Assembly: GCA_921293015.1 (NCBI GenBank)
Contig: OV121092.1
Span: 31,813,764-31,877,763, forward strand
Direction: 5' to 3'
Length of the DNA stretch: 64,000 nt
Source: Phorcus lineatus
Lineage: Eukaryota > Mollusca > Gastropoda > Trochida > Trochidae
Every line of letters begins with the position of its first letter. Position 1 is the stretch's first letter. Below, in pieces: positions 2,534-63,704 of the stretch. Made by a program: the position numbers and the translations under genes. A model generated the notes under the pieces. That model did not search any database and was not told where the DNA came from. It saw nothing but the letters and a program-made list of their open reading frames with translations.

Positions 2534-4502
2534 TCATTTACCGTTCCTTCCGCCCATTCCGCCCATTCCACCGCCCATGCTTCCCATGCCGCTCATGCCG
2601 CCCATTCCGCTCATTCCGCTCATTCCGTTTATTGAGTTCATGCCCGGCATCCCCGACATTCCCGGCATCCCCGGCATCCCCGGCATCCCCGACATCCCCG
2701 GCATTCCCATACTAGAGCCTGGAAAGTTCATTCCTGCCATTCCCTGGGACGGGGATCCACCGTACATGATTGGCGTCCCTCCTGTCATTCCTTGGCTGTA
2801 AGGGCTCATGTTGGATGGGCCAAACATGGACGCAACTGAAATTAGTTGGTGGATTATTTTATGATAGAATTTCAAATATATCAATCATATCGCAATATCA
2901 ATTGAAAGAATTGTTCTTGCAATTAATGTTTATATTGGGTACATCGTATCGACTTTCAAAATATGCATTTATGATTGCTGGCAGATTAAACGAAAAGCAG
3001 CAAACATTTATAACTAAGTAGGAGATTTGAAATTGGAAGTTTCTTTGCATCAATAAGGTGAATCATGTTTTTCAACTTCTAACACTTTCTGTTGGCAACT
3101 TTTAAATTCCATGTGCAAAAAAATAGATATTTTCCAAAACGTCAGTTCTTGGTACACTCACTGATTGGTCTATTAACTACTTACCACTCGTGTGTACTTA
3201 TTAACACTTACCTGATATACCTTAAAAGTCCTCAGGTCCACAAGAAACAATAATTATTTTTTCAAAGAAAGAAAGCATTCTGAAGGAATCTTTATTAGCT
3301 TGTCAATGGATAGCATTTATGTTGTCGAGAATTTACACAATATCATTTATCAAAGATCGGTCCGAATGTCAAAGTCAATTTGTTTCACAAATATGAAATA
3401 TGAAGTTAGAAGTAAAAACAATCCATTTTAATGGCTAGCGCTTTCAGCTCAACGAGCCTCTTCAGGCCATACATACAACGGATAATGCATCATTACATTA
3501 TTACGTCACAATATATATATATAGTTGTACAAAGTTTTCAAAAGACGCAAAAGTATTCGCTGCTGCAAGACCTCAAATTATTCTGTCATTTAAAAACACA
3601 ATGTCATATATCATCGAGAAAAAACAATGTTTCATTCATCTATGTATGGTCCTTTAGTTTTCTCTATCTCTTGGAGAATGCTTTTAATCTTTTCAATCTC
3701 TCCAGCAGGGTGTACGGCATTCAAATATTAAACATGAATAGGTTCATGAAGAAGGTTCCCGACATAATGTTATCCATTGGACTTTTTATTAGTTGCCACA
3801 ATAATGATAAAGCTTGTAAACATGTAAAATTCCATTCTTATTTTCTTTATTAGTTCTGAAATTTCAAAAGCATCACATAAAGTAAGTTCACGTTTTTTCA
3901 TAGTTGATTTATCTCTTATTTTTGTTGGTTGCATTTTACTTTACCTACGAGTCGGTCAATTGAAGCACATGACGGCTTAACTTTATTGAAATAAATAAAT
4001 AAATAGCTATTGATTTATGATAACTGACAAAGACGTATTTAACGTTTCTAAAAATATATAACGTATTTTAGGCTTTTGTTGTCATTGAAAGAGTGTAAAA
4101 ATTAATAAAGTATTCAAAATGTTTCTCGGGCAATTGTTGACATTAAAAGAATGCTCAAATAAAGAACGATGGTGGCCATCGATTGCTAATGTCAAAATAT
4201 AGTATACAAATTGAATCTGTCGAAACTTATTAAAACAAACAATGGGAAATGTCCTTTGTTTTGAATTAGATATCATTACTATGTTCATTCATTCATATGT
4301 CAATATATATGATAACACTCAATGGTAAAACGAAAATTACAACATTTTGTACAAATTAGACAATTCATTGTAGCAATATCTAAAAACAAATTAATCAAAT
4401 CGTAATTCATTGAATTTCTTGTTTATAACAATTATTCAATCAAAACTCACCTTGCGTGGTTGCAAAAGCAATAAGACAGGCTAGGAGGTACAATGTATTC
4501 AT
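2534..4502 (-). CDS. Gene A: small secreted Gly-Met-Pro repeat protein (2 exons)
   Basis: Exon 1 is 4502-4451: 17 codons encoding a signal peptide, MNTLYLLACLIAFATTQ, ending in a GTGAGT donor. Exon 2 is 2835-2534, after a TTTCAG acceptor. The intron is phase 1 and the join keeps the frame. The predicted protein is 117 aa with a TGA stop at 2536-2534. The mature part has a Ser/Pro/Gly-rich lead (about residues 18-60), then pentad-like GMPGM/GMSGM repeats (about 61-85), then GMGGM/MGSMGG repeats, and ends G-G-R-N-G-K. It has no Cys and almost no charged residues, so it is likely an unstructured extracellular structural polymer. Met/Gly-rich secreted proteins are known in mollusc shell or adhesive secretions, but I recognise no named homologue. 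Gene B's first mature exon has a related MGP-repeat composition. An ORF continuing upstream of 2835 in the same frame is intronic and was not used. The fit of signal-peptide exon plus acceptor is strong. Confidence 0.85.
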
Positions 4503-4549
4503 CTTGGAAGAAGTTTTTAAAATTCTACGTATACACTTTGCCATATACC

Positions 4550-4557
4550 CTTATATA
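4550..4557 (-). promoter_or_regulatory. Probable TATA box of gene A
   Basis: The reverse strand reads TATATAAGGG about 50 bases upstream of the gene A start codon, leaving room for a short 5' UTR of about 20 bases with initiation near 4525. Position and sequence fit a classical TATA element. The start site is inferred. Confidence 0.6.
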
Positions 4558-4559
4558 CA

Positions 4560-6640: not shown

Positions 6641-6652
6641 TTAATTTTAAGT

Positions 6653-8460: not shown

Positions 8461-8469
8461 CCACTTGCT

Positions 8470-10810: not shown

Positions 10811-10814
10811 CTAC

Positions 10815-14606: not shown

Positions 14607-14693
14607 ATCATCCATAATCATTTTTCATTTCGATTCTATGAAAAATGGGTATTTCTGACCACTGCACTACTCTAAGACTCTCAGTGAGTGAAG

Positions 14694-18243: not shown

Positions 18244-18566
18244 ATGGCGCCAAATGGGATACTGGGAGCAGTTCTGTCGTTGCTAATGGCTGTCAAAACT
18301 GAAGGTAGATTTCAAAATGGTTTCTTTTTTTAGGATTTCCGTACAAAGGAAAGTTAAATTTACATTTATATGAACGATGAATTGACTTTCTTGTCCTCAA
18401 CTTGTAAACTGGCTTCCTTTCAGTAATTCTTTTTGGCTTCTGGAATTATAGTGAATTCACTAATGATCATAATGACGTTTTATGTTAATGAGTTAACACA
18501 ATTTTAACCGCAACTTCACTCAACTTCAAAGATTCAAGCTTATGGATTGATTATCTCAAAAGGCTC

Positions 18567-18607
<41 letters not shown>

Positions 18608-21600
18608 AATTATTTTTCCTTCTTCGTTTATCAGTTTAGTGAGGATCTAATATACTCATTTTTATTTATTTCAGCCATGGTGATGGGCAACCCGTTCACC
18701 TTTCCAAACATGATACCATCATATCCAATGAGGCCATCTATGGGACCAGCAATGGGGCCAGCTATGGGACCATCAATGGGGCCACAATCACAAATGGGTG
18801 CTCAACAAGGTCCTATGCCAACTGGTGCATGCGCATGCCAGGGAGGAGTCTGCGCGAAACGAACCGAAGGAACCATCTTTTGCCTATGCTTTGAAGGCTA
18901 TAGCCTGGATAAAACCGGAAAAATATGTTTGCGGAACCCCCGTAAGTGAAAATTCATGATTTTTGTATAAGTATCATGATATTTAGTTAAAAATTCTCAA
19001 TGGTGGTAAAACTGTTTCTCAAGTCTTATGTTCCCACGTAACCCGCACGTAATAGCGCAATGTTCTGCTTCCCGCTAAGGGCCCGGCAACTTTGACTGCA
19101 GTAGAGTACTGGTCTTCGTGCAGTAAGGTTATGGAGCAATGGTACACTGAATTTCAGCTCATTAGTTCCAGCCGATGCTCAAAGGTTTCATTGAAATGCG
19201 TAGGCAAATCTCCCTGCAATTATACTAGCAGCCGTGATATTAGTCAAATACTCTAGAAAATTCACCTAAATTTGTCTGATGCCTTAAACATTGGTTTTAG
19301 ATACAATTTCCGAATCGTAAGTCATTTTTCTGTCTGTTTCATATAATTCTTTTTCCTACAAGGTATCTAACGTATAAAACTCAAAGTAAAATTGACGATA
19401 TCAAGCAATCAGTTACTAGCTACCTAAAACTGGAACCTTCGTTTGGATATTATGAAAGATTATTAAGAAAATATAAATCAATTTATCCAAAAAGTTACAT
19501 GTTTACAACGTGCAATATTCTTCAAAGTAAAATATACGATAGCTAATAGTTTCTACCAACTTAGAGCCATTTCAACCTGTTTTTGTTGCAGCTTGTCCGT
19601 CTAAACCGTGCACAAACGGCAAATGCTACTTGTCTTACTATGGCCGTGTTCCCGAATGTGTTTGTGACCAGGGATTCAAAGTATCAGCAACGGACTCTAC
19701 TATTTGCGAATCAGCCAGTTCTTCATCAGGTTCCTCAAGCACAACATGTAAGAACCTAATTTAATGGTTATTATTCGTGTTACTCGATTTCCCATCACTC
19801 TTGTGTTATCTGAGTTGGTTTGTATTGATTTTTGTTTTGTGTCTGATGTGTATGATTTTGTGTTATATCTATTTTTGCTATGTCTCTGCCTTTGTGTGTA
19901 TTTGACACACGTTGTATCTGATTGTGTATTGTGTGGAACCGTGTAATGCGTCTGTTTTTTTTCATCCTCATTTGTGATGTATCATACGTTGTACTTGTTG
20001 TGATATATGTTGTATCTTACAAAGTGTTGTATCTGATTTTGTATTGTGTGTGACCTTTTAATGTGGCTGGCTTTGTTTTGTAACTGTTTTGTGTGGTTCT
20101 TTATTTATCATGTGTCAGACTTTGTGTTGTATCTGATTTTGGGTCTGGTTCTCACTTGAATTTAAGATGAATCGGGATTTGTGTTGTTACTTAGGGTTTT
20201 TCTGATTTGGTGTTGAAGGTTGTATTTCGTTGTTCTTATTTACTGTCATGTCATGTTTGCGTTGTATCCTACTTCAGACTTTATTTGTGCCCTTTTGTGT
20301 GTTGAATCTGCTTTAAAGTTTTATCTGATGTTAGTTATATCTCAATTTTGCTTTATTTGACTTTATCTTCTATTTCTTTGGGTTGTATCTTATCCACTGT
20401 CATGCCGTCTGCTTTTGTTAAACAAATTATTGTATTTCGATTTCGAGGCTAATTTCTACATCTTCTACATCTTCTCAATATGTTTTTGACGTTTCGTACA
20501 ATCCATGTTATAAGTTAACCTTTAGTTTCAGTCAAAAGGCTCTAAAATTAAAGTGACTGTTAACCCGTTATTCATTTTATGATTTCCCATGACTCCAGCT
20601 ACAAGACAGTGCACGGCAAGACGATGCCGCAACGGAAACTGTCAGACGGTTTCTGGAGTATCCAAGTGCGTCTGTAACCCAGGCTACACATTGAATTCAA
20701 GTGATCGGTGCACGTCTACAGCTGCCTCAACATCTCAAGCAGCATCTCCACCTGCTCAGGCAGGACCAACACCAGGAGCAAGAGCAGGACCAGGCGCAGG
20801 AGGAGGGCCTCCTGGGCCTACTGGAACCCCAACCAATAACGGGATGAACAGGGGAGCTTTGAGTAGTGTTCTTGATTTGGGTGAGATTGCCTTTCAATTC
20901 TATATAACTATGGCTCAATTTCAATATATTATGATATCAATCTAATTATATAAGTTACGGAACGGAACAAAATAATGGGGCTTATTACAATGATACCGAC
21001 TCAGGGTATTCGCACGATAAATTGTTTTCCATTTCCAAACCCCAATTTCACAGAGCACGCTTAGTGCTAAGGGCGCCCTTAGGCCATAGTTACAACATTG
21101 AGTTATGATCACTTGAGTCTAAGTGAGCTCTGTAGAATGGGCTCTGGACCACATTTCCCTTACGTGCTACTCACATTATTTTATCACGTAACCTCTGTTA
21201 TGAATGGACCATTTTGTCTAGATTTTACCCTGAGTTTTTGAAAGAAAAGTCGTGTCTAATCATTTAGTTTCTCTACGGCGTTTGGGTACGACTGAATAAA
21301 ACTCACCCGAGTGCATTCAGTAAGGGTTTCTGAGTCCTGTTCCACTAATCAGTTGTAAACTTACAATCAATTGTAGCTCATTATTTTAACATTGATTGCA
21401 ATTGATTGCATCCTTACAATCAATTGTAAGTGTTTGGGTAACGGGCCCCTCAAACTGCTCCATTTGCAATATAAGTTACTTGAGAAGAACATGCCTTGAT
21501 GAACCGCTGTGGGTAGAGAGATGGTTTGTCACATAGACAGTCTATACATTTAGTCCAACATTTAACTTAGCCTTTTTACACTACCGTTTTTTAATCTAAG

Positions 21601-22085
21601 TCAGCAGATCGAAGGTTGGTTTCTAATCACATCACTAATTTCACAATTAGTCCAAAACAAGAGATGAAATATAGATTCCGGGGTGTCAAATATTCTTATT
21701 TCATTCCATAAGACGTCATGCAATAATTTCACATATTTTACACTAAGATTGATAACTACGTATTAAAGGTCTCATATTTCAATATTAGCAAATGAACACT
21801 TATCACTTTTATATAGAAATTCTTGTTGCTGTTTTCGTCGTCTGTGACAGGCCGTTTTCCAAATGGTTTAGAACGATTTAAATAGAATAAGATAGGTAAT
21901 AAAGAAATAATTACACTCAGAAGTGTACTTTGTGACTTTAACGAAACTCGCTCACGCTCGGATAATAAAGAAAATTCATACTTGTTTTGTTTATTTTTAC
22001 AGATCCTGCTGATGCTGCGTTGTTGAGCAGCAGTCGAACGCCCCAGCAAGCATACATGCGATATATGCTACTTACAGAAATGTGA
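18244..22085 (+). CDS. Gene B: secreted Met-Gly-Pro repeat and EGF-like protein (5 exons)
   Basis: Exons: 18244-18304, 18675-18941, 19592-19747, 20599-20880, 22003-22085. All junctions are GT-AG and phase 1, giving 282 aa. Exon 1 encodes the signal peptide MAPNGILGAVLSLLMAVKTE. Exon 2 has a Met/Pro-rich lead with MGPA/MGPS repeats (about residues 38-55), then an EGF-like domain with the unusual first spacing C-x-C-x4-C. Exon 3 is an EGF domain (C-x4-C-x4-C ... C-x-C ... C) followed by a Ser-rich linker. Exon 4 is a third EGF domain followed by an Ala/Pro/Gly-rich linker with collagen-like GPPGPTG. Exon 5 encodes a C-terminal tail ending YMRYMLLTEM. It is paralogous to genes C and D by architecture and tail. 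There is no transmembrane segment or catalytic motif, so it is probably an extracellular-matrix component. No named homologue is asserted. Confidence 0.87.
18568..18606. repeat. (ATT)n microsatellite in gene B intron 1
   Basis: About 13 uninterrupted ATT units, about 70 bases before the exon 2 acceptor. Confidence 0.95.
19042..19245 (+). mobile_element. SINE-like dispersed repeat, copy 1 (gene B intron 2)
   Basis: Begins cgcacgtaatagcgcaatgt, contains a cggcaactttgactgcagta block, then a core ggagcaatggtacactgaat ending in agttccagccgatgctc, and a tail with tctccctgcaattatactag. The same ordered blocks occur on the minus strand at 60145-60402, so this is a dispersed interspersed element. The second copy has a GGTTCGAATCCCGCC stretch resembling a tRNA T-arm/B box, which suggests a tRNA-derived SINE. 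The tRNA-like segment is deleted here. Confidence 0.6.
19788..20415. repeat. Degenerate TTGTATCTGATTTTG repeat tract in gene B intron 3
   Basis: Irregular repeats of tgtgttgtatctgattttgt and variants fill much of the intron. Strongly diverged, TG/TA-rich, non-coding. Confidence 0.65.
21018..21445. repeat. Short hairpins of MITE type in gene B intron 4
   Basis: ttacaatcaattgta appears in direct and inverted arrangement at about 21360-21430 around attgattgcaattgattgca. The upstream block has gcttagtgctaagggcgccc. These look like remnants of short non-autonomous elements. No coding exon is seen between 20880 and 22003. Confidence 0.4.
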
Positions 22086-45017: not shown

Positions 45018-48000
45018 ATGAAAGTTCTACTTTCTACAGTTTTAGCATTACTATTTCAAGGTAAGTTCATCTATTTAACCTAAACTGCATCATCAACTTA
45101 TTTATTTTAAAGGGAGTTGTGGTAGCAGGTATATGAAAATCCTTTGAAAAGTGAAATGACAGTTATAGCAAAACTCCTTCTCATGTACATGGTTTAATCT
45201 TTTCTAAATCAAACTTTGACAGATTAACATGCATTTTATTTGAATATAAAACTAGAAAGCTATTAGATACGACAATAACTACACTATTAATGTTTCGTAT
45301 CAAAGGGAATTTCACAATTTTTTCTTTAAAAACTTTGGTTTGACATGTATTTTTCAAAAGTTAATGGAGATTTATTCATGGTTTATACTTTATGACGAAC
45401 AGGATAATTTATTACAAACTCAGATGTATCCTTCGAGTTTTAGGAAACGAATACGTATGAATGAATTACATAAATAAAAAAAACATGCGCAAATAAAACT
45501 TTCAACTTTCAACACTTAACTATTTTAGTAAGTACCAATTCGTTAAACTTTCGGTACAACTGATCACTAAAAAGTGCAATAGCGTAGATATAATGGTTTC
45601 ACAACAGACAAATTTAAAAAAACTGAAGCAATTTAGAATTGTTGCCAAGCAAATGGTTTTTGTGCACAAAGGATTAATATGTCACTGCCTATGTCGGCTT
45701 GCATATTATATCCTTTATATCTTCAAATATATCAAGATCTAAGAGTCATTCATCCGATGACTAACAGAAGATAGATCTGATGAGACCAATGAGTTTTATA
45801 AATATAGGGTGTGACATACACGATCTGAAGACCACACGCAAAACGAGACATCTGGTATCATAACCAAGCTAAAACGGATCCCTATTAAAATGTTCATAAG
45901 ATATCGCCTCCTATTGTCATATTCAGTAAATAGATTTTCCTTTGGTTTGTTAAGTTTTTATTGTTTTAAGCAATTCATGTTATGCTCATAAAACTGGCAT
46001 CCCTTATACATAAGGCTTAGTGGCTGTACATAAGTCCTGTGCAAGAATCTGGATAAGGTTTCTGCATTATTATAGTTCATTGGATACTTCACAATGGGAA
46101 AGTTTAACCGTTTTCACAAATTACGTTTTATAGTTGTTCCAATGAAATGGTGCTTTTAATTCTTATATCAATACGGTCGTGTAGATACAAAATCATTACA
46201 CAAAATTGAGCTTCCTCAAAACATGGATTACCATAAAGTAGTAAGTCTGTTACTACATTTGATTTGTTGCAGACATGCTACAAATAAGGACGACAATGAT
46301 ATATGGATATACAACTTCTTTATTACACAGTGGCGACGTTTCGGTATAGATCCTTATACCGTTATCAAGCAAATACTTGTATATGCGTGTGTCATACAAG
46401 ACGAATGTGCTAAAATGAAATTGAAGAAACATGATTAGATGAACATCCAAAATTAACAGTTATAATACGTCGAACGTCGTCCTTTCTTGATGTCGAAGCT
46501 AAAGCAGCGTTTTTCATATAAAATTGTTTTCAGATGATGGGACGTGTGTTGTGATTACGATATAACAATTATAATACCCTCCAAAGGAAGTTTTAATCCG
46601 TGTTTGGATTTTCGTACTTTTCAGTTTATATCAGCTTTGAAAAGGACTCAAACACTCAATCAATTTCGTTACAATGAATCAACGTTTTGCCTCAACCGTT
46701 GCCGAGATATCTGGATACGAATCGGAAAGTAATTTACTCTGCAATTGCGGTCTGACGACAGCCCTTTTACGCGCATGTTCCGTTGCCAGTTTAGTGCAGA
46801 CAAGGTCTACATATTAGCAGATTTCATAGAATGATAGGGTGTGCAAAGCAGGATGGTGATGACCATGTAGTATTAGGTAGGTAGGTAGGTGGGTTTAAGG
46901 GCGACGTTGGACCATGTAGTATTAATAATTAACAGGAGTTACTTGCCCCTTGATTATGATAAAGAAAGCCTGTGCCGGAGGCTTAGTGACTGGCACACCA
47001 GACTTGCTTACGAACATACGTCTAAATGCACGGATTTAAGAATGTTTCGCATAGGTTTAGGCTTGATGAATCACGTTCGTATCCCGGTAGATCTAATATT
47101 TTGAAATTATTGTTTTCCGCTGAAAGCGGTTGGTACTAGTGGGACCGCCGAAAATATAGTTTTTTTAAAAGAAAGTTTTCGAAGTGCAGTACAAGAAAGT
47201 TCGATAAAGATTGAGAAACGCTCCATGACAGAATAATTTTGAACCACCTGACGTAATGATTAATTTAGAAAGCAAAACATACTTCATACTTAAAGATTGT
47301 GACGTCATGTGACGTCATGAAGCGCACGGTTTTATGTCACAATGTGTAATTACAATGTATATTCATTAAACGGCGGTACCTCCAACGGGAGAGGCCACAT
47401 TGTCAGCAAAGACAGAAAGTTAGCCGAATTCAAACGGATATTTTACAGGAAAGTATGTCAGTAAAACTTTTTTTCAACGGCGGTTTTTTAGAGCATAGAT
47501 TATCAGGAGGACCGTACCCCCGAATGCTAGTATTTGATATGTTATTATGCACAATACTGTAGTATAATTGCATCTAAAACATGGATGACACTTTCACATC
47601 AGTTCATATAGTTAAACTTTTTTAAAAAATCAAATGCCCATGAATAAACTTAATTCAGAGTCATCATATCTCCATCAAATGTAAAGGGAGTAATATAAAT
47701 TAATATGTAAAATAACTAATGTTATAAACACCTAACATCAACGTATTCAAAAGAAAAGCAAACTTGCAAATGTTGCTTTATATAACAAGTTATGCTGCTG
47801 CTAGGTTAAAAAAGAGATCGCGCTAGTAGGTTACAGGGACAAAGGCAATAAATGTCTTTACACATTCCTTCAGCAAGGCGTATCCTTGTCAGATGTCCAG
47901 CACGTCAAGCTTAGACCATGACAACGCCACAACCTCGTCGCTTGACCGGTTTTACATGAGACAGGGGTGATTTATGAAATACCTCTGTAACATTACATAT

Positions 48001-51000
48001 AAGACAGAAGAGGATTCATATTTGTTTTAACAACTTATATTTGAAACATTGTATAAGAGTAAGAAAAGATATATTTTCATGTGTAGACATATACACAAAA
48101 ACAAGTTAACAAATTCAGTAAATAACAAACCCCACACTAGCTATCAGTCTAATTTTTTTTGTCTTTGACGACTTCCCAGAGAGTGGCCCCTCTTGAACAA
48201 AGTATGCTTCTGTGTGGCATTTATTTGTACTGAAATTCAAAAGGTTAGCTTAAAGGAAATTTGTCACATGTGACGATTGTGATATTTCCCACCAAATGAT
48301 GCATGTTGGGAAAACGGTAGAATACATATACTAATTTGTATTACATTTTATTTCATCTAGATATTACATTTGATTTGTTACTTGCTTAAACATTTATATG
48401 CCTTACAAACGAAAACGAAACAAAACAGCCTTTTCTTTTAGGTTATCTGCGCAAGCATTCTACAATCATCATATTATCTTGTTAAAGTTTGCCTCATATC
48501 GACTATAAGCTAGTTAATCATAATTATACACAGTATGCAGACGCCCATCTTTCAATATCCTTTGTATATTGCCAATATTATTAAAGCTTATAAGAGGCAA
48601 ACGGTAAGAAGACAATCTGGGTTTTTTTGAAGCCTCTCGCTAATATGAATACCCTGATGTAGTAGAATGGTAAAAAAGTAATAAATGGTAATTTTATTCA
48701 AAGAGGTCGTTATAGAATACAATATTGTACTGATAAAGTAATAAATGATAATTTTATACAAAGAGGTCGTTATATAATACAATATTGTACTGATAAAGTA
48801 ATAAATGATAATTTTATACAAAGAGATCGTTATAGAATACAACATTGTACTGATAAAGTAATAAATGATAATTTTATACAAAGAGGTCGTTACATAATAC
48901 AAGATTGTACTGATAAAGTAATAAATGATAATTTTATACAAAGAGATCGTTATAGAATACAACATTGTACTGATAAAGTAATAAAGGATAATTCTATACA
49001 AAGAGGTCGTTATGGAATACAATATTGTACTGATAAAGTAATAAAGGATAATTCTATACAAAGAGGTCGTTATAGAATACAATATTGTACTGATAAAGTA
49101 ATAAATGATAATTTTATACAAAGAGGTCGTTATATAATACAATATTGTACTGATAAAGTAATAAATGATAATTTTATACAAAGAGATCGTTATAGAATAC
49201 AACATTGTACTGATAAAGTAATAAATGATAATTTTATACAAAGAGGTCGTTACATAATACAAGATTGTACTGATAAAGTAATAAATTATAATTTTATACA
49301 AAGAGATCGTTATAGAATACAACATTGTACTGATAAAGAAATAAATGATAATTTTATACAAAGAGGTCGTTATGGAATACAATATTGTACTGATAAAGTA
49401 ATAAAGGATAATTCTATACAAAGAGGTCGTTATAGAATACAATATTGTACTGATGTATTAAAATGTGTCGGATGACAACTTCCTTTTCATTGCAAAAAAT
49501 GTTTCTGGGCTAATTCTTGCCAATTCATCTTGTCTTCATTTTGTCTTCATCTTGTCTTGTATCGTTTCACAAATTTCTAAATGCCTTTGAGGCATTTCAA
49601 TGAAATGTACTAGTAACAAACCATTACATCTTTCTGTGAGGAACAGGACAAGCATTTACTGTTTATACCTATGATTCAAATACGCTATATGTTTTTTAAC
49701 AGGATATGTTATCGGGCTAGCTAAAAACTGTTTAAAAAGTGGTTGCGAGGGAGGGGGCATATGTGTCGACCATGGAAACGATAACTACAGGTGCTCGTGT
49801 GAAGTTGGCATGATTGGCAATGAAACCCACTGCGTAGCTGAACCAGGTACGTGGACAGTTTACTATGACAGTATGTCATACCTTGATATTGAGAATTACA
49901 GGTATTACGTTTGGTAAAAACTCTGAAACTTAATGATGAAGAATCAAGAGACAATAGCCTTTAAAATTTGTTTCTGTCATTACATAACATATTGGAACAC
50001 TTTGAATTTACTAAAACAGAAAGGGTGAAAGTTAAATATAAAAATTCATTTGTCAAATCTTGCTTTTGAATAGGAATATTTTAAAGACAACCAAATTCTT
50101 AATATCTGGTAATTATTTACAAGGATTTTATAACGTTAATTTTTCAATGTTCTAATATCTTTTACAATCAGGCTGTGAATAGACTGAAGTTAACAAAGGT
50201 AATTCAAAGCTTCTTCGGTGGCTGATCATGAAAATATTAAACTGATTATAAACAAATATGGATATTGAACATTTTGACCAAACTAACATTAATGCCAATG
50301 GTGCATTAAGGCGAACATAACTTTTTAACTCATTCATTTAATGTTAAAAAACTAAAATTCCTATATGAATTGTTAATTATCTAAAATAGTTCCATAAATT
50401 TATAAGAATGTATATGTTTCATGTCAACTAACATACAAACTTATGATAATATATAGGTGGATTTGTGGGTGGATGTCACACAACTGGCTGTGTAGATGGT
50501 GTCTGTACAAACCAGCCGGACGGTTCAGCGATCTGTGTGTGTCCCGCGGGCATGGTGCTCGACCCTAAGGACAGAAAAGTGTGCATAAAGGGTAAATATG
50601 GAGAACATGACATCTTTATATGGCAATATGAACATATGTATAAAAGCACATCCCTATGTCACTTCTTAGTCATGGTGTATTACCTGAAGAATACCTTAGA
50701 AAATTCATCTTGTTGAAATTCATAGGTTTTGGTAATGAAATATTAAAGGATGTACGTTTTTTTTTTTTGTCAAATGTATTTCTTTTCTGACCTTTTTCTT
50801 TCTGACCCCATCTGTAGCGTTAGGAAACAACTGAATTACGTCCTGAGTTCGCCATGATAGCGAAGCGATATTGCTATCCTATTCAAAACGTTATGGTCTT
50901 AATCGACGTTTTTGGAAATAAAATTAAGAAAACCATTGCCATTTCTCGTCGAATACATTGTATACCTCATCTCGTGAAGTAGAAATTTATATATGCACTC

Positions 51001-54000
51001 GTGGCTGCGAAACCCGTGAAAATATAAATGTCTACATCACTCTATGAGTTACACAAGGTATACGATTAATAATGCCATCCTCCACTTCTCCGGGTCTTTT
51101 CTGTGTCAAATTACTCGTAACCCAGCCAAATTTCTATTGACAATCTATTTTCCGTTCGAATTCTGTAGAAAACATGTTTATTGTGTGTTCTTCAAATTAA
51201 TGCATGTTTGTCTACAATGTTATATTACTAATAAAGACCTTTACAAACCGACTTTTAATGTTATTGTAAAGGAGACCTTTATAAACCGACTATTCAATAC
51301 ACCACACTGTACGACATAACGTAATATCACTGGGTATTTTTCATTTTTAGATGTAGTGATTTGTTCCACGCCATGTAAAAACGGAAAGTGTCAGCGCCAG
51401 TCGGACGGGTCCGATGTCTGTGTCTGTGATGAAGGATATGTTCTGTCCGACACCGATCCCAAACTCTGCAACCCAATTACATCTGGTAGGTATTTCATTC
51501 TTACTCATGCACCCTATTTTCTCTAGTATCCTCTGTTACAGGTGGAACACGTTCTTGGCCATCCTCGGTCAACAAGCGCTTTGTGTTCAAATACACTTCC
51601 AAAGTCAATTGTAACCATCATCTGGAAAAATCTGTTCTTAAACTTGACTTGAAAAAAACTTTGAAATTGCTATGCCTAATGGAAAATGCGAGCCTCTCAA
51701 AAGTTCTTTTTCCATAAGATGCTTTAGTCTTGTTGTAAGGAAAGGGTTTTTTAATTCCAACTCAGCTCATACTGTAATGTATTCAGCCAATCAGAAAGGA
51801 AGGTTTATTCTAAGAATTCAAATTAGAATATCTGAGCCAGACTATCTAAAATTCATTTAAAAACAAATTTCCACTATTCGCTTCAAGTCGTCTTATTAGG
51901 TTATGGTTTCATAACGAGACTCAAGTGCAGATAATTTCAGAACAAATTTTCCTGACAAAAGCCAAGGGGTGATTTTAAGATTATTGGAAGGTTACGCCAT
52001 GTTATGGAATCGTATATGATAATGTTAGTAATAAAGTTATTTGTGCAGCAGTTTGAGCTATCTAAGCATTCGGTCGGTCAAATAATTACTGATTTGACTG
52101 AAGTTTCTTCACTTGGGCAATACGACCATATGTCATACATCAAAGAAGTAAGAGAAACGGGGCTAAGAAATATGACATCCTAATAACAAACACTGTTTGG
52201 AGAGAATGATATAGTTTATTAGGAAACACATAACATATCTGGTACCCATTACAGCTATAAATGCCCGTCTGTTAAGAACAATTTTTGATTGTTATTTTTT
52301 TTTTATAAATGAACGTAGTGCGTTGTTATCATGCTTAAAATAAGAAGTGTCCACTTTTACGTTTTAGCACATTCAGTGCATTCGAGGCACGTCACTCGTC
52401 CACTTGATATGTGCAGATTTGAGAGAGATTTTCCGGACGCTTCACTCACACGTACAGGATCTCGCTTTGTAGAATCCTTATTGTCCAATGGTTACATTAA
52501 TAAAGCCATTCATTTACAAATGATATTCTATATAATAAGAAAGTATTGCTTGGAAAACGAATTTAGTTTCATTCACTTTTAAAATATATAATTTAATTTA
52601 ATCATCCTGTTCAATCAGATTTAGGTTAAAACTATGAAGTTTTAAAATCATTTAGAGGTAAACTGTAGCGAAAAGGGCGTTAATTTCCTAATTTGTATTA
52701 GGTTAACATTGATGATTCTTTATAAGATGTGTTGTCAGATATAAACTTTATTTGCATATTATTTTATCATCTCATTTCATATCAAACATTTCTGACTACC
52801 TGAATAGCCTATATAAACGTAAAATGATTTAATTTTGTCTGACCTCAGATTGCAATTCTCTGTTGATTTGAGATCTGCATATACATATACATCGTTTTAT
52901 TTGCAACTTCAGGAAATAAATACATGAAATTTTTAAATTCAATTTCAGCTTCTCAAACAGACAACTGTAATGTCCGCCCATGTCAGTACGGTATATGTGT
53001 GAACACAATGGGAGTAAACCAATGCCAATGTATCCAGGGTTACACACTTTCGCAAACTGACAAAAGCGTCTGTGAGCCAATAACGACAGGTACAGTGCTT
53101 ATCTTACGTCATTTATGTAATATTTTACCTGTAAAGAGTTCGCAGTGTAATGTAGGTATTGTCACAGTAATAGCAGTATGATTGATGTTTATGATATAAT
53201 ATACACCTTTTTTTTAATTATTATTTTCCTTATTTTGTGGTACAGGCAAAGACACATTTGACAAAAACAAAGACATTCAGCATATAAATACAGTTACATA
53301 CATCCAAATATATAAGCACAATTCAATTTAGTTAATGAGTGGATTATTTTCCAAGTAGTAAATGTAAAGTTGACCAGTACTTAAAAAACATTTCTTCAGT
53401 TTCTGTTGATAAAAAAACATATCTTGACAAATCGTAATATTGTATAATATCACTTTTAAAATACTCTAACTTCGGTCTAAAACCATTTATGCTACATTTG
53501 TAAATATGTTGTTTGACTAATAAAATGATTGCATTTACAGGATTATTGTTCTTTCCTTTCATTCCCAAAATGATTATTTTATTTGTAAATTTTAGTTTTA
53601 ACTGTACAGAGTTTAACCATGATTCGATTTCTTTCCATAGTCTAAAGATAGGTTCACATTCCCAAAAAATATGATTAATTGTTTCTACTTCTTTTTCACA
53701 AAATGAACATAATGGTGATGATATATATCAAATTTTATAGAGAAATTGTTTTGTTGGGAGAATATTGTGAATAATTCTATATTGCAACCATTTCAAGTCT
53801 GTGCTTCTCGTACATTTATTGGCAATAATATTAAAAATTTTCCAATCATTTTCTTCAAGGTCACTTTTTAGGATTTTTCCCCATCTTGAATAGCATGGCA
53901 GGCGAACAAATTTTGAGTTTATAAGAGAGGCGTACAGTTTTTTATTCCCAATTATGAGGTTAATCTTTGATACATTGAATGGGTAAATAGGATTCGACAA

Positions 54001-57000
54001 TGTCTTCTTGAATTGCTTTGTGTTCATATGTGATCGGGTATATGCCATTATGGCTCTTTTCACTGATTCATAAGTTAGAAAGTTAGTCTTAATAGAAAAA
54101 GTAGTGGAAAATTCTTCATATGTTAACAATCTGCCGTCATCATGAAGCATATCATTCACAAAAACAACACCTTTCTCATACCATTCATAATACAAAAAAG
54201 GACGTTTATCAATTGTAATATTGTCGTTGTTCCATAATGATTGACATTGTATATCTTCTTCATTTACGATTTCCTTTTTATTCATTAATAAAAAGTCTGA
54301 CCATTCTAAGAGTATGTCTTTCCAAAAGGAGTTAGTTGCAAAAGGAATTATCTTAGCTCGTATGAAGGCGCTATCCGTTAGCAGAAGCGGAATTTTGATT
54401 TTTAGTTGATCGGTAAACAAGTATGCCCATTTGCAATCATTACCGCTTATTCTTTTCATCCATTTTAATTTTTGTGATGATATCATCTTTCTAACATTTG
54501 GCGTCTTTATTCCCCCATGCTCAGGGTTTAACATCATTACATTTCTTTGTACCTTATCCGGTTTATTTTTCCATATGAAATTAAAACATTTTTTTTGCAG
54601 TCTTTCGATAACGCATTTTTTCGGATTGGGTAAAGATGAGAACAGATGGTTAAGTTTTGGTAGTATGAGTGATTTAAATATAGTGTTTCTTCCATATGGG
54701 GTTAAGTTACGTGCTGACCAAATGTTCATTTGCCTGTCCATATGGGAGAGCTTTTCATTATAGTTTATATCAATCATTTTATCTAGATCGATGTCGAAAT
54801 GTATTCCCAGAAGAGTGAAATTTGTTTGTGACCAATCGAATTTCCATTCCTTACACATTTTATATCGGGATCTTTTTTTGGAGCCTATCCATATTAGTTT
54901 TGTTTTATCTACATTGACTTTTAATCCTGAAAAACGGGCAAATAATTCTAAGGTATTCAATGCTGAATAAAGGCTTTTTTCTGATCCATCTAAAGTAAGA
55001 GTTGTATCATCTGCAAATTGTGAAAGAAGAAATTCTATATTTCCAAGTTTAATTCCCTTTATGTTTTTGTTGTTTCGTATCATGATACCTAAGATTTCTA
55101 CACATAAAAGAAAAATATACGGAGTTAACGGGTCCCCCTGGCGGCATCCCCTACTGACTTTGAAGGGATTTGATGCGAAACCGTTAACCAAAACCCTTGA
55201 TTCAATATCAGAGTAGAAAGTTTCTATCCAATGTGAAATACTGGGTCCAAAATTAAAAAAACTTAGGACTTTTGTGAGGTAGTTTCTATCTACCGAGTCG
55301 AAGGCTTTTTCACAATCAATTAGAAGCAGCAAGCCTGGTATCTGACAAGCTTCAGTATGTTCCATTAGATCATATATAAGTCTCGTTACCTCGCCAATAT
55401 ATCTCCCCTTGACAAAACCTTTCTGATCTTCGTTGATAATACTGGGTAATATATCTTTTATTCTGTTTGCAATTGCTGCGGCACCAACTTTATATGAAGT
55501 ATTTAGTAGAGAGATGGGACGCCAGTTTTTCATTAATTTCTTTGGTTTATTAGGCTTAGGAATACACGTTATCAAACCTTGTTTTTGCCAATTTGATAGG
55601 TGTCCGTTCTCATAACCAAGGTTAAGCGAATTGAGGAGAAATTCTCCTAGATCTTTCCAGAAGAATTTAAGAAATTCTGTAGTAAAACCATCGGGCCCTG
55701 GACTTTTTTCATTTTTCATGTTTTTAAGAGCGAAAGCTATCTCATTCAATTTCAATTTACCCTCAAGGTTCCCTTTGTCATGTTCATTTAAAACTGGGAC
55801 ATTTTCATTTTTAAACAAAATGTTAAGATTTATATCAGACTGTTCTTGTGCAGTGTATAATTTTTCATAAAACAGTTTTGCTTCGTGGACTAACTGTTCA
55901 CTTTCGGTTATAGACGTTCCGTCATTTCTTTCTTTATACACCTGATGCATATCAAATATAATGTAGAGATTATATCACAGACATAATTTATACTGAAACG
56001 TCTATAGTCCAGGGCCTCATTTTCACAAAGTCCTAAGGTTCCCTAAGGTTACCTTAGTCCAATGTTAAAAAAGGAAGTTAAGGTTAACCTTAGTAAAGGT
56101 TGCTTTGTGAAAGGATACCCTAGGTGTACAACCTTCCATCGATTTCGGCTTTAGCTGTGTATTTTGTAAATCGAAAATTATCATGTCGAAACTTCAAAGC
56201 TAAAATGAAATTATAATATATCTAATTATATTATGAAATGACATGGCAGTAAAAGAATTTATGGTATGTATGAGTATGTGGCTTAATTTTTTCATCTTGA
56301 GTTTTTAGCCCATTACCAAAATGTCCATATCAAAACGTCAACAATTTAGCTTTTCATCATTTCTGTTTTTCAAATTCACACAGATGTAATGTGTTTGGTT
56401 ATTCAACAATATTTGTGATAAATATTAAACAAAGATATTTGATTTGTATATATCATATTGCAGGTCCAGAGCCAAACAATAACCCTTGTGCCTATCTATT
56501 ATGTACAAATGGACAGTGTATGGTAAACGTGTACGGTAACCCTGTATGTAGGTGTTACCAAGGTTACAGACCCTCTCAAGTGCAGCAGTACACATGTGAA
56601 AGAATATATGTTCCACGTAAGTATTTTAATACTCATTGTAATATAAATATGATAAGGGTGTATAGAGCTCGCATTTGATACAGTTGTTTATGTGAAACTA
56701 ATTTTCTGACGCGTAAAAAATGAATATAAAGTTATCATTTAGCATATTTAGATGTTAAAATTATTTTTAAATTAACAACTGTGCTAAAGATTTTAGTGCC
56801 GCTTTATGCTAATTATGTGGTCAGGGAAAGAAGATTACAACCATGTTTGGTTGATGTATCAATCTTTTCATCATTTTAAGCTCCAACAAGTTGCACGTGT
56901 ACAAACGGACAATGCCAACGGGGAACTGACGGTTCAAATGTCTGTGTGTGTTACTATGGTTACGTAAGAGACCAAAACAATCCTACCAACTGCATCCCTT

Positions 57001-58623
57001 ACAGTAAGTCAAAATTCAAATTTTCTTGTCGACAAATAAAACTGATATACAATTTTTTTTTTCATATAGACATTCACGCGTCATCCATTTAGGGCTTTGT
57101 CTGTGAATCATAATATAAGAGAAGCTCCCTGGTATTTAAGTCAATCGGTATCTACATATTGAAGTTTAAGGTAGAAATAAAAAGGCTGCAAACAACTCCT
57201 TCCAAAGGTGGTTCAGAACGTCTAGTAGCTGAAATAGCCATGAGTTCTTACATATGTTATTTGAGTGTAACAATCTAAACAACGTTTGTCGGTATTATAC
57301 AGAATCAGACAGATGAAAATGACTTTTCAATGCCACGATTTGTAGATATTTATCCAAGCACCATAACTGTATGAATTTCTCTGATAAAGTAAACCAGATA
57401 TATCAATGTATCGTTATATCGTTATAAAAAATGCAAGATGAAGTCTAAGCATCACTTAATGAACATCTCTATATATTTAAGCTCAAGCAAGTTGCAGGTG
57501 TACAAATGGGCGGTGCCAACAACGTCCCGACGGATCCAATCTGTGTGTGTGTAACTATGGTTACAAAAAAGCGTTAAACAATCCTTTCAACTGCATTCCT
57601 AATCGTAAGTAGATTTTAGAAAAAAATCATCATATGATAGATAATTCAGATATTTAAAAAATTTAAATCAATAACAACTTCTCAAACCCACGGCAAGAAA
57701 GGAAATATTCCTTTGGCAGAAACGTTCAATGTTATTGAAATGCCTGTGGTATGTATATGAAAAGTAGCATTGCACTTAACTTCGCTCAAGATGTCATAAG
57801 GTACGAGTCAGCGATATTTTAAAAGTAAATGCTGGTAAGGTTTGTGTGATTTTATGTTTTGTACCCATTAACGTACCGAAATACATTGAACAATATCAAG
57901 ATAAAAAAAACTTATGTAATTTACAATTATATTTTACAGCTCCTCCAAGCTGTACCTGCGCAAACGGGCGGTGTCAACAACGCACAGGTGGTACCGCTGT
58001 CTGTCTCTGTAACAATGGTTACAAAAATGACCCAAGCAATCAAATGAGGTGTATTCCCATCAGTAAGTTCAAGAAGATGTAATTTCACACTTTCACACCC
58101 ATGCCAGGTAGAAAGTGTTTCGAAAAGTCTTGAAGCAAACGTAACATATCTAAAGCCACTATTGCTTTATCATTATCAATATATATTTCAGAAATGGAAA
58201 ATTCTTTACTGTTTAGGCGCAGTTTGGTCAAATAATCAAAAGTGACATGATACTTTTCTCAGCGATTGCTCTTATCGCCTATGCTAACTCGTTTCAACAT
58301 CAAATAGGACAGTTAATAGCAGGAGATGACGCATGGAGAATGAAGGAAATTAATTCGTTCTCAGCGTTCCTTTCATTCGGACACTGCTAAGTCATTTCAC
58401 TGTATGGCTATCATAAGCAATACAAGGAAAGCGCTGAAAGGACTATCTGAGGATGAGGGTGTTTTACGAATTAGAATATTCTTAAGGAGCAGGATGGATT
58501 GAAAAGTCGAATTTTTATTATTTTACAGATTCACAAACGAAGCCGCAAAACCCATACCCGTATAACTGGAACGACATGCTGTCAGTGTGGGGAATGCAGC
58601 TGCTACTCGATGAAATGCGATGA
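45018..58623 (+). CDS. Gene D: secreted eight-EGF protein (10 exons)
   Basis: Exons: 45018-45060, 49703-49846, 50457-50591, 51351-51485, 52949-53089, 56464-56616, 56881-57003, 57482-57604, 57940-58062, 58529-58623. All junctions are GT-AG and phase 1, giving 404 aa. Exon 1 encodes a short signal peptide, MKVLLSTVLALLFQ, continuing into exon 2. Exons 2-9 each carry one EGF domain. Exon 6 (NPCAYLLCTNGQC...ERIYVP) is the clear counterpart of gene C's exon at 40782 (NPCAYIKCLNGQC...IYVP). Exons 7-9 are three copies of the short C-x-C-x4-C-x9-C-x-C-x13-C type, counterparts of gene C's last EGF exon. The tail is a Pro/Asn/Tyr-rich spacer ending MLSVWGMQLLLDEMR. The N-terminal domains resemble gene C's exon 2 region in the phrase CxDxPDGSAxCVC. 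Likely a soluble extracellular-matrix protein paralogous to gene C. No named homologue is asserted. Confidence 0.87.
48666..49455. repeat. 60-bp minisatellite with 360-bp higher-order repeat (gene D intron 1)
   Basis: About 13 copies of an exact 60-bp unit (tgataaagtaataaatgata, attttatacaaagaggtcgt, tatagaatacaatattgtac). Variant sites (g/a in aagag[ga]tcgt, tata/taca/tatgg, aatatt/aacatt/aagatt, aatgata/aaggata) repeat every six units. Units starting at 48721-49080 match those at 49081-49440 almost base for base, so the array grew by duplication of a six-unit block. Because 60 is divisible by 3, a 284-codon reverse-strand frame stays open by chance. Confidence 0.96.
53200..55942 (-). mobile_element. 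5'-truncated L1/Tx1-like LINE inserted in gene D intron 5, with 8-bp target duplication
   Basis: The element lies on the minus strand from about 55934 to 53208. Its 3' end (on its own strand) is a short A-run (plus-strand TTTTTTTT at 53208-53215), about 130 bases after the ORF's final stop. The direct repeat TATACACC at 53200-53207 and 55935-55942 flanks it, as expected for target-primed insertion. The 5' part, including any endonuclease, is absent. The insertion leaves gene D's exons intact and runs antisense to the gene. Confidence 0.85.
53344..55950 (-). pseudogene. LINE reverse transcriptase ORF, N-truncated and split by one stop
   Basis: The main frame (55950-53728, 740 codons) contains the reverse-transcriptase domain in normal order: SPGPDG near codon 84, an IPKP...NWRPISLL block, a QKGFVKGR block, LLIDCEKAFDSVD (first catalytic Asp), GCRQGDPLTPYIF, and the catalytic FADDT box near codon 315, followed by the thumb/connection. 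The block order and wording fit the L1-Tx1 clade. A TGA at 53728-53730 interrupts it. The same frame then continues through a Cys-x2-Cys ... His ... Cys knuckle to the natural stop at about 53344. Thus the only visible lesion after the 5' truncation is one in-frame stop, and the copy is young. The first codons before K-E-R-N-D derive from flanking intron and the target duplication. Confidence 0.9.
56018..56115. mobile_element. MITE-like hairpin in gene D intron 5
   Basis: Terminal tttcacaaag (56021-56030) and ctttgtgaaa (56103-56112) are perfect inverted repeats. Inside are ccttagt / actaagg palindromic words (cctaaggttccctaaggtta versus taaggttaaccttagtaaag). About 95 bp, non-coding. Confidence 0.72.
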
Positions 58624-58716
58624 CGTGCAATATTTATTTTCAAATATTTAAATCTGTGGTGTAAAATATTTAAAAACTGTGGTGTTGTGTTTTCATATTT
58701 TGTATACTGTGGTTTT

Positions 58717-58722
58717 AATAAA
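58717..58722 (+). terminator. Polyadenylation signal of gene D
   Basis: AATAAA 94 bases after the stop codon. Confidence 0.7.
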
Positions 58723-59940: not shown

Positions 59941-60060
59941 ACTCAACCTCGTGTTGTCTGATATCAAGGTCATCAAATCTCATTTATAAAAATAAAATCT
60001 TTTATCTATTCGTGTTCATATAATTGATATCAGAAGACATTTTGACGAGATTCTCTATTT
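59941..60060. mobile_element. MITE-like hairpin element (copy 2)
   Basis: Right arm ttgatatcagaagacatttt followed by gacgagattctctattt resembles the right arm of the 14500-14606 element. The left arm ctcgtgttgtctgatatcaa is its imperfect reverse complement. Older and more diverged than copy 1. Confidence 0.5.
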
Positions 60061-60144
60061 ACCTGACTTGGCGAAACCATGTCATTGTAGACATATAGTG
60101 ATCGAAGGCGAGGTGAGGTGGTTAAAGGTTTAGGTTTTACATAA

Positions 60145-60402
60145 TGACTGCTAGAACCATTGCATGGAGAAAGTCCGCAATATCATTGTGGATATGCATT
60201 ACGGTGAGACCTGCGAGCATCTGCTGGAACTAGCGAACCATTGTTTGTACTGCGCTGAAATTCAGTGTAGCAATGCACCCAAAGCTTAGTGCGTGTAAAA
60301 CAGTTCTATCCTGCAGATAAAGTTGCCGAGCCTATGGCGGGATTCGAACCACGGTGTTCATGGTCCAAAGCAGAACATTGCGTTATTACGTGCGGTGTAC
60401 CA
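60145..60402 (-). mobile_element. SINE-like dispersed repeat, copy 2
   Basis: The reverse strand starts gcacgtaataacgcaatgtt and contains GGTTCGAATCCCGCC (B-box-like, typical of tRNA T-arms), then cggcaactttatctgcagga, tacactgaatttcagcgcag, agttccagcagatgctcgca and a ctccatgcaatggttctagc tail. The same block order is found at 19042-19245. No intact tRNA fold or A box could be drawn, so it is not called a tRNA gene. Confidence 0.6.
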
Positions 60403-60419
60403 GGAAGAAAAGACTTGAG

Positions 60420-61100
60420 GAACAGTTTTACCTCCATTGGGCATTTTCATCAAAATGTCATTATACTTATACAAAAATCATGAATAATCGCACTGCGCTT
60501 TGATGGTCGTAAATTACAAGAGCATTTAAAATGTTTGAATGCAAAGAAGAGCAATGAAGCGAAGAGTTTGGCAAAGTATTTGTTTTCATCCAGTGTCATT
60601 TACGTGGCTTTGACTTTTTCCAAAAGCTACATAAAAACAGGAAGCTCTTATGGAAAGGTTAGGGAGGGATTACTATTATTTATAATGCAGCTAAAGCGTT
60701 GGATTCGTATTCTTTGACGCTTAACATTGACGTGTTTTTCTTTAACTTTCAACAAATATAAAAGAATTCATCGCAGTTAGTTACCTTGCAGAAAATAATA
60801 ATTTATCAAGTCATTAATTACCCTGAAACATAATGTTGTTTATGGCATATGTTGTGTTCTTATAGAGATGCACCTGGTTTTTATTAAAAACAATGTCCAT
60901 TTTTCAAATACCTCGTGAAAATATTTTAGTTCATGGACTTGTTAGCTGTCATATTCTGTTAAGTGCTTAAATAGGAGAGTATGAGAGGTTAACGGTAACG
61001 ACAACATACACATAGATGTATATGAGCTACATCAACAAGGAAAGATTGAATTAAACATACAATTTTATGTTTTTGGTGTGCATGTTGCTTCCCGAAATAC
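60420..61100. other. Upstream region of gene E, no other gene seen
   Basis: No exon-like coding. A weak TATA-like cttaaatagg lies at about 60966. Confidence 0.35.
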
Positions 61101-61112
61101 CTTTGTTGAACA

Positions 61113-63704
61113 ATGAAAAAATTTCTAGTGCTCGCTTTTGTGCTTTTAACTTTGAATGTACAAAATGCAGTTAATGGTTTTCAATTTGTGGACCTTGTTG
61201 GTAAGTTTGTCTTTATATTATGTATGAGGTTTCATCTTGAACACGATCGTTTATTATTTAGAATCCACCGCATTAATTTCGATGTTTATTGATGTCACGA
61301 TTAGTTTTACGTTTTACTTAAATTGCAAATGATATTTTAGGCCTTCATTGTATTATCAGTCACGACTACTAGTTTTAACTACAATGTCCTACTTTAATTG
61401 CAAATACTATTGATGTTTATACTGAAATCTCCTTTGGCATATTAAATGTGAGTCCTTTCGAACTTCATGAAAAATACATTTGAAATTCTTAAGATACTGT
61501 TTCATGAATATAAAAAAGTGAAAACTAGTGCTTAAACGCACCGTTCTATTTCCGAAGTCAAACAAGACGGTAGGAATTGTTTGATAAATGATGTTACGTT
61601 CCGCTGAAAACATCCATCAAAGACGAGATATGATCTATATGATGTTTGAAAGCTAGCCTAACGATTTTTTTTTCAGTTTACCATACATCAGAACAACTAA
61701 AAACATCGACATTATTTTTTCAGCAATGTCCTTAATGTTGCTTTGATGTAAAAAGCAATCATTTGAGCAATTGAATTACATACACAAAATACACGAGCAA
61801 TGTTAAAATTGAGTACCCACGTGACATCTGGCCCTTGGTTCAAGAGCAGTAGTCCATACCAAGTATGATAAGTTATATCAGAAATATGAACTATTCATTA
61901 AAGGCAATGGTATATTTTCTTTGCAATAATACCATAAGTTTAATTGGACGGAAGGTAACTGCATATTCATTCACTTACAATACATTTGAAGAAAAAAAAT
62001 CTCGAAAAATGACACGAAATAAATTGAGATGCACCTTGCATATAAAATGTACAAATTCCATCAATGAAACAACCATAAGATACTTTAAAATATGTAGACG
62101 TGGTGTCAATACTAGCACTTTAACTTACAGGTGGCTTAATGCGAATGCTCTTTCCATCGGGTCAATTAAATCATGTCATTGGTAGGTATACTTTTATAAC
62201 GCCACTGTTTATTGTTCGAGTGCATGCGTTTTGGACTTTGTGAATCCAATTAATTGATTGGACGGTCCTGTCTAGGCCGACAGCAAAGTCTCCGCGGTTG
62301 ATAAGTGAAATGAAATAATAATATGTGTGCTCGGGTCGCACAGTTATTAATACTAATATGATAAGAATCATATCACAGTTTTGCTCAGTTTTTAATCTTT
62401 GTAACTCTGGGTAGAACTATTACCTTGCATACTTGTTTCATCGACTTGGTCAATTCTAGAAGACGCAGCATAGTCTGCACTTCAGAATTTGTCTTTTATA
62501 TTCTCGCTCTCGCTCAGGTTATATTCAATAATTAATTCTTGTTAATTCGTACTACTTCCTGGAATTGATCTTCTTGCAGGAGGACTGTTAAACATGCTAC
62601 AGCCATCGAATGGACCAAATACAGGGCTGGGTATAACACACTTTTATAACTCTAAGCACCAACATACAAAATTCTTAAAATGTCAAGTCTTTTACAAATC
62701 TGTCTCTTTTATGTAAGAATGTGTAACCTTCATAACAAATGAAACTTACAGTTAATACGGAAATATATAATTATCTACAATAGGCCCTGTGGGGGCTTAT
62801 TCTTGTGGCATTACAAGTTTATAGACGCTTTAACAAAAGTGTGTGACCAAGATTGTGTCGATAACGTAGTGATAACAGTGATATTTGATTGTATTTTGAC
62901 ATTTAATCCAATCATTTGCATATAAGCTGGTGTTTTTTTTATTCTACATGTATATTGCACTTTTGTTGTACTACTCAGCGGGATTGATAAACCCTTTTCA
63001 ACCGCAGCCCGATGCAGGTTCGTACATATAGTTTTTACTGAAAATCACTTGTTCAAGTACATATTTAAAGAAATACTGTCTTAAAAGGGCATTAATGTTT
63101 CCAATTGCAAGATAATGATTTTAATCAAAAGAAGCAGTTTAAAGACAAACGTACTGTGATCGATTAATTTATACGAATCCACTTCCCCGCCAACGATAAT
63201 ATAAAGGTGCTCACGCTGAAATGGCCGCAAGCAGATTTTGCTTGATACTGGATTATTTCCTCTACGGATGATCGGGTTGAGTAATAAATATAAATTTAAC
63301 GTTTTGCTTACACTCCTAATTATTAAGTAAATTTTGAAGAAATAAATATTATAAAAGCTCGCTACTGTCCCTTTAAGATATTATCATTAGGTAGGTGTCA
63401 CACGTTATTGAATACGTAATACATATTTTGCAATGTCCATGAAAAATTGGCATAGCTTATCAAATTTAGTAGACTTCCAACCATAATTCCATGATCTCTT
63501 ACATGACTAATGACTTTTCTTCACGATAAAATGGCAATAAAACACCATGAAAAATTTGTATTGAAATATTTCAGTGTCTTGACTTTGATAGAATATGACA
63601 GTTGTGATAATATCAGCCAAGTGAATAGAAGATATCTTTAATTCCACATACAGGGAGCTTGATGAATTTACTTCAGCCGCTTCTTCAGGCTCAACCTAAT
63701 ACAG
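61113..63704 (+). CDS. Gene E (5' part): secreted protein of small repeated G-L-x-N-x-x-Q-P exons
   Basis: Visible exons: 61113-61200, 62580-62630, 62979-63017, 63654-63704. All are GT-AG and phase 1; the internal exons are 51, 39 and 51 bases. Exon 1 encodes MKKFLVLAFVLLTLNVQNAV and a short mature start, NGFQFVDLV. Exons 2-4 read GGLLNMLQPSNGPNTGL, AGLINPFQPQPDA and GSLMNLLQPLLQAQPNT, i.e. three versions of one motif, G-x-[LI]-[LIM]-N-x-[LF]-Q-P. Short amphipathic repeats with no Cys suggest a low-complexity extracellular polymer. The gene continues beyond the window, so its size and end are unknown. No homologue recognised. The tiny exons rest on splice signals plus the shared motif and phase. 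Confidence 0.68.

Follow-up and report, generated by a model that had tools for sequence, protein, structure and literature searches.

A tandem cluster of predicted secreted structural-protein genes in the trochid gastropod Phorcus lineatus, with the shell matrix as a favoured destination

A 64,000-nucleotide stretch of chromosome 12 of the trochid gastropod Phorcus lineatus (the window) raises the question of whether five adjacent genes (A to E) of dissimilar coding sequence, ranging from Met/Gly-rich repeats to arrays of EGF domains, form one set and, if so, what that set makes. An earlier note on this DNA had described the five as signal-peptide genes with no unrelated gene between them and had proposed a co-secreted matrix toolkit of shell, byssus, adhesive, or egg-capsule type. 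Analysis of the window and its flanks, with flank positions given in window coordinates (minus for left of the window start and beyond 64,000 for right), supported the window as part of a larger tandem cluster of approximately 19 predicted secreted structural-protein genes. The 19 predicted genes spanned ~193 kb, from -25.7 to +167 kb, and this count is a lower bound to the right, where sequence was covered to +184 kb and the end of the cluster was not reached. The predicted common gene plan included a phase-1 signal-peptide exon, a variable middle, and in most genes an acidic-then-hydrophobic tail on the last exon. The middles consisted of EGF exons and/or G/M/P-, P/Q/Y-, T/S/E-, or G-rich sequence, the latter probably disordered.

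The first exons of all five genes (A on the minus strand and B, C, D, and E on the plus strand) were rebuilt as the earlier note had claimed, each with a Met followed by a hydrophobic stretch and an end in phase 1; "signal-peptide-like" refers here to that pattern of residues. The predicted coding content was also as described, with GMP/MGP repeats in some models and EGF arrays or runs of short repeat exons in others. Internal exons modelled in B to E were phase 1-1 in 35 of 35 cases, with the caveat that acceptors of the gene C array were sought in phase 1 to begin with. Phase 1-1 is usual for EGF exons and therefore the uniformity is not surprising in itself; as nearly all modelled EGF and short exons share this phase, gain or loss of an exon would leave the reading frame intact, as gene C illustrates. 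A splice/codon finder trained on the B to E exons recovered 32/35 of them exactly within the window, a partly circular result as the finder was trained on the exons it recovers. It made three further picks on the plus strand, two of which gave exons 52961-53089 and 62131-62181 a different end, and three on the minus strand, including a gene A exon. The claim of no unrelated gene in between held for the listed open reading frames and failed for a transposon reverse transcriptase frame in a gene D intron and for tandem-repeat arrays; apart from genes A to E, the coding DNA found in the window between genes was transposon sequence only. The extension of the cluster to either side of the window, the AA acceptor of gene C exon 7, and the gene E exons past the window end are additions to what the earlier note described.

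Genes B, C, and D carry EGF-like domains, identified by the six-cysteine pattern and significant matches to curated profiles. A total of 31 EGF cores were identified in the window (3 in B, 20 in C, and 8 in D), and Pfam matched cEGF in B, C, and D and EGF_CA in C. The Pfam scan gave no match in gene A or in the in-window part of gene E, and the EGF exons of E and of the right-flank gene F scored under the cut-off. In a PDB search, an alignment of 19 EGF exons matched chains of Notch and fibrillin (best 5e-12). Calcium-binding EGF domains are characterized by the start [DN]-x-[DN]-[EQ]-C and by C-x-[DN]-x4-[FY]-x-C-x-C. The start motif was absent from B, C, and D, and hydroxylation-type motifs numbered three, in C only; Pfam EGF_CA was nevertheless above cut-off for C. 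One EGF of the left-flank gene Z (DKNEC...CINYIGTYHCKC) fitted both calcium-binding motifs by eye. EGF frames were common across the genome (150 scored of 1610 candidates).

Gene C displayed exon amplification with conservation at the protein level. The exon type DCTVRQCQFG was multiplied, and exons 8-13 encoded the same 41 residues in all six. Seven pairs compared among them had 0 nonsynonymous and 0 to 10 synonymous codon differences, and the identity of the introns that follow ranged from 99% down to ~49%. The predicted exons of C and D leave little doubt that the two genes are tandem relatives, as their exons correspond in sequence along both genes, the best pairs being D2 and D3 with C2, D4 with C17, D5 with C19, D6 with C20, D7 to D9 with C21 (D7 matching C20 almost as well), and D10 with C22. 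Genome searches covered the 957.8 Mb assembly of P. lineatus (74 contigs), and all 26 matches of the D protein at E<=0.001 lay inside this locus. Gene B appeared weakly related to C and D, its EGFs matching themselves and then, weakly, C and D exons (E 8e-4 to 0.01); two places on contig C1 matched as weakly. Within gene D, the first intron contained a tandem array of thirteen 60-base units (48675-49454) with an open frame on each strand, and a Cys-containing C-terminal frame at 53347-53727 (minus strand) belonged with the reverse transcriptase of long interspersed nuclear element (LINE) type in a gene D intron.

The tail is a statistical feature common to the gene set. Over the final 16 residues, compared in every gene except A (18 genes), the summed similarity was higher than in all 200 composition-preserving shuffles (z 7.2). 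A C-terminus in which an acidic residue precedes a hydrophobic end was present in 17/18 cluster genes, O being without it (area under the curve 0.97), compared to 11/62 other frames of >=120 amino acids and 173/828 of >=60 amino acids. A strict regular expression for the tail on terminal exons identified D plus matches resembling chance, and the looser similarity tests followed.

The explanation that we favour, and consider fairly probable, is a tandem cluster whose products are secreted together by the mantle epithelium, most likely into the organic framework of the shell. In this scheme the co-secreted products would build an extracellular matrix, probably that of nacre/prism or the periostracum, in which disulphide-folded EGF arrays would act as spacers or binding rods, Tyr/Gln/Met/Pro-rich segments would form a gel and cross-link it, and the tail would aid sorting or assembly. 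Secretion into a matrix is well supported by the structure of the predicted genes, with shell a best guess at its type by analogy with known shell proteins. The products have the secreted, low-complexity, or EGF composition tabulated for gastropod shells, a likeness of composition only, with secretion predicted from the first exon. The toolkit proposed in the earlier note stood as a co-localized set of secreted structural genes, larger than claimed, and lost its byssus option. Byssus, or a bivalve adhesive, was rejected as P. lineatus is a trochid gastropod. The genome also carries two molluscan haemocyanin genes with 16 beta-sandwich units in all: eight functional units at 7.65 Mb of contig C12 and eight, on the other strand, at 16.56 Mb.

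A non-shell secreted matrix, such as that of the operculum, pedal mucus/adhesive, egg envelope/jelly, or radula/gut lining, seems a somewhat unlikely product of the cluster. Arrays of EGF domains and repeats rich in P/Q/T occur in secreted matrices generally, and no calcification-specific feature was seen by eye in the predicted proteins, gene K having a DDDDDD run and no long Asp-rich protein being seen among the cluster products. However, the composition types agree with the shell-protein lists of two gastropods, and the byssus variant is ruled out by taxon.

Several points weigh against co-secretion of one cluster into the shell framework. The models of genes A to E, rebuilt from splice signals and reading frame, are predictions, and several flank signal exons were one among few candidates. 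The best acceptors of the first gene Z EGF exon were in phase 0, not phase 1, and four gene C exon pairs reaching beyond exons 8-13 had 6 to 11 nonsynonymous codons. Gene B was absent from the 37 genome matches of gene A (E<=1), so that the likeness of A and B pointed out in the earlier note is borne out as one of composition only. A Pfam scan of the twelve right-flank minus-strand proteins (N without part of its repeats) gave 0 matches, and the kinship of these Cys-free genes therefore rests on position, composition, and tail. Many tails had been viewed before testing, the tails are short, and 10/18 reached z 2 versus their own shuffles. Further such points would fit a chance neighbourhood of independent secreted families, in which the tails would be convergent hydrophobic C-termini with no shared module. 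The F, I, O, R, and S tails (5/18) had z under 1 versus their own shuffles, the six Cys-free tails of H, I, J, K, L, and N alone were matched by 11/300 shuffles (z 2.1), and upstream k-mers of 13 cluster genes included none shared above shuffles and hence no promoter word in common. Of the Cys-free genes, N and L were searched genome-wide with their C-terminal parts, and both found themselves only, which would also suit independent families. Such a neighbourhood is nonetheless unlikely in view of the set-level tail excess, the clear relationship of C with D and the weak one of B, and the left neighbour stretch from -89.9 to -36 kb, where the same exon finder made just three picks (scores 17 to 25).

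How a tandem matrix cluster could have gained such dissimilar members may be compared with the vertebrate SCPP cluster, where tandem secreted genes have a shared signal exon and fast-changing P/Q-rich or acidic middles. The two are alike in tandem genes and signal exon and differ in phylum and intron phase. It is tentatively suggested that a single ancestor, with a phase-1 signal exon and an acidic-hydrophobic tail for assembly, was duplicated to at least ~18 copies while its middle gave way to exons of EGF or short symmetric type or to disordered repeats, giving a molluscan counterpart of the SCPP genes. The Cys-free genes would then share this descent. If so, seemingly unrelated shell proteins of proteomic lists would be siblings told by tail and position, the orthology of dissimilar matrix proteins could be traced by these two features, and the tail would be a testable assembly or sorting signal. 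This matters as much of the gastropod mantle secretome is without recognizable homologues, with almost 85% of the Haliotis asinina mantle secretome described as novel in the consulted part of the source (PMC1676022).

Gene A encodes a mature product of 100 amino acids (G 32%, M 23%), and as a possible donor lies just after 2542, its end is unsure and a further exon may exist. Its best relatives were a near-identical pair of longer frames, Met/Gly-rich and in the same orientation, ~0.5 Mb upstream (51% over ~101 amino acids, E 7.5e-5 and 9.9e-5). They lie ~8 kb apart at 31.306 and 31.314 Mb of chromosome 12, end in NPALLGMYLGGGF, and perhaps mark a second cluster. Weaker matches on contig C32 included collagen-like frames, and composition alone may therefore carry part of the gene A matches. 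Directly behind the gene A end, seven copies of a 116-base tandem repeat were found (1694-2504), the unit having a plus-strand AATAAA. These data bear on whether some members are decaying or not genes at all, with A a chance frame over a 9-base repeat and C carrying damaged exons. The unsure end of A and its collagen-like matches would be expected in such a case, as would gene C exon 7, which is probably skipped in splicing given its AA acceptor, and a decayed EGF exon near 37127-37200 within gene C. This is improbable, however, as A has a matching signal exon and its two longer relatives, and the compared pairs of C exons 8-13 differed by synonymous changes alone.

Gene E extends past the window end, with ~39-60-nucleotide phase 1-1 exons up to ~+70.8 kb. 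A finder trained on B to D only gave 13 short-exon candidates on the plus strand of the gene E span and 0 on the minus strand, a density of 1.04 per kb versus 0.25 and 0.22 in the control stretch (~4x); one of the 13 (63340-63390) looked like noise. A genome search with the gene E EGF and C-terminal end at E<=0.01 gave self-matches only. Schistosome micro-exon genes consist of a signal exon followed by short symmetric exons. Gene E, by its predicted short symmetric exons behind a signal exon, matches this gene type, with exons of 39-60 nucleotides that lead to an EGF exon.

On the left flank, gene Z would begin with a candidate signal exon (-5888 to -5981), followed by a short exon (-6776 to -6720) and, near -21.2 and -21.9 kb, by two EGF exons; the long frame after these, 1130 amino acids from stop to stop, is Q/P/T/S-rich and ends ILMAFLMSEAFA at -25727. 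Gene A running on into Z as one gene was judged less likely because of this separate signal-exon candidate and short exon. Left of Z were two frames without Pfam match, and past the left edge of the cluster a rhodopsin-type seven-transmembrane receptor frame was found at -72 kb (minus strand). LINE-like frames, judged by eye, lay around -3.4 kb to 0.6 kb. On the right, the twelve minus-strand products are P/Q/Y-, P/A-, T/S/E-, or G-rich with no Cys after the signal exon, which was plausible for H, K, N, O, and Q and unsure for the others. At ~+105.0 to +109.8 kb, a block of long frames that overlap one another includes a phage-integrase match below threshold and is probably a mobile element, perhaps DIRS-like.

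Table 1. Predicted features of the locus in window coordinates
Feature	Position	Strand	Description
Window	C19:31813764-31877763	forward	Phorcus lineatus chromosome 12
Gene Z	to -25727	-	left flank: signal exon, short exon, two EGF exons, long open frame
Gene A exon 2	2534..2835	-	GMP/GMG-repeat protein
Gene A exon 1	4451..4502	-	signal-peptide-like MNTLYLLACLIAFATTQ, phase-1 end, donor GTGAGT
Gene B	18244-22085	+	five exons
Gene B exon 1	18244..18304	+	signal-peptide-like, phase-1 end
Gene B exon 2	18675..18941	+	MGPA/MGPS repeats and EGF 1
Gene B exons 3 and 4	19592-19747, 20599-20880	+	EGF 2, EGF 3, G/P/A linker
Gene B terminal exon	22003..22085	+	tail ...AYMRYMLLTEM
Gene C	27051-42512	+	22 exons
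Gene C exon 1	27051..27102	+	signal-peptide-like, phase-1 end
Gene C exons 2-21	28704..41861	+	20 phase 1-1 exons, one EGF core each
Gene C exon 7	32879..32995	+	EGF frame intact, acceptor AA instead of AG
Gene C exons 8-13	33618..36159	+	six exons, protein identical
Gene C terminal exon	42445..42512	+	tail ...LISLWGYRYLIDEL
Gene D	45018-58623	+	ten exons
Gene D exon 1	45018..45060	+	signal-peptide-like, phase-1 end
Gene D exons 2-9	49703..58062	+	eight EGF exons, ordered as best-matching C exons
LINE-type reverse transcriptase frame	53731-55974	-	in D intron, not part of D; Pfam RVT_1 1.7e-34
Gene D terminal exon	58529..58623	+	tail ...DMLSVWGMQLLLDEMR
Gene E exon 1	61113..61200	+	signal-peptide-like, phase-1 end
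Gene E short phase 1-1 exons	62131-62181, 62580-62630, 62979-63017, 63654-63704	+	GLxNxxQP type
Gene E EGF exon	+73744-73890	+	outside window, after short-exon run
Gene E terminal exon	near +76.2 kb	+	outside window, ends ENEFMFDA
Gene F	EGF exons 86048-88106, last frame 88893-89294	+	right flank
Genes H, I, J, K, P, L, Q, R, S, T, N, O	76.6 to 167 kb	-	twelve right-flank genes

Literature searches found no paper containing six peptide strings from the locus, no account linking a C-terminal motif of shell-matrix proteins to a gene cluster, no micro-exon shell genes, and no paper treating SCPP alongside shell matrix. The compositional classes of the cluster are shared with Haliotis laevigata, a nacre-forming vetigastropod whose shell table, as far as consulted, includes G/M/P-, Q/P-, and S/T-rich repeat proteins of nacre and prism (PMC6003135), a comparison by composition only; the word EGF is absent from the main text of that paper, unlike the EGF genes at the Phorcus locus. 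In the seen part of the Lottia shell table, a few proteins are G/M-rich and many Q/P-rich (PMC3374290). Among them, Lotgi1|173200 with 10 GAMP/GSMP repeats and 20 Cys resembles gene B in combining such repeats with many Cys, and the P- or P/Q-rich proteins 236689-236691, of consecutive accessions, resemble the right-flank genes, both compared by composition only (PMC3374290). EGF-bearing shell proteins listed in the same source include EGF-like domain proteins 1 and 2 of Pinctada maxima and oyster gigasin-2 (PMC3374290), to which gene C with its 20 EGF exons is likened by the presence of EGF and not by alignment. Tandem shell-matrix gene clusters are already known, and no description of a mixed cluster united by a common C-terminal tail was found in the sources as far as consulted. 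In Pinctada fucata, such clusters arose by duplication and include an EGF-like pair, and clusters of Lottia gigantea are mentioned in the same paper (PMC4759782). Similar to the Phorcus locus, these are neighbouring secreted genes from tandem duplication; from the consulted part of the paper they are small and mostly single-family, alveolin-like with MP10 being a mixed pair (PMC4759782). In contrast, the Phorcus locus, whose products are putative shell proteins, brings together mixed EGF and repeat genes in one neighbourhood with a common tail.

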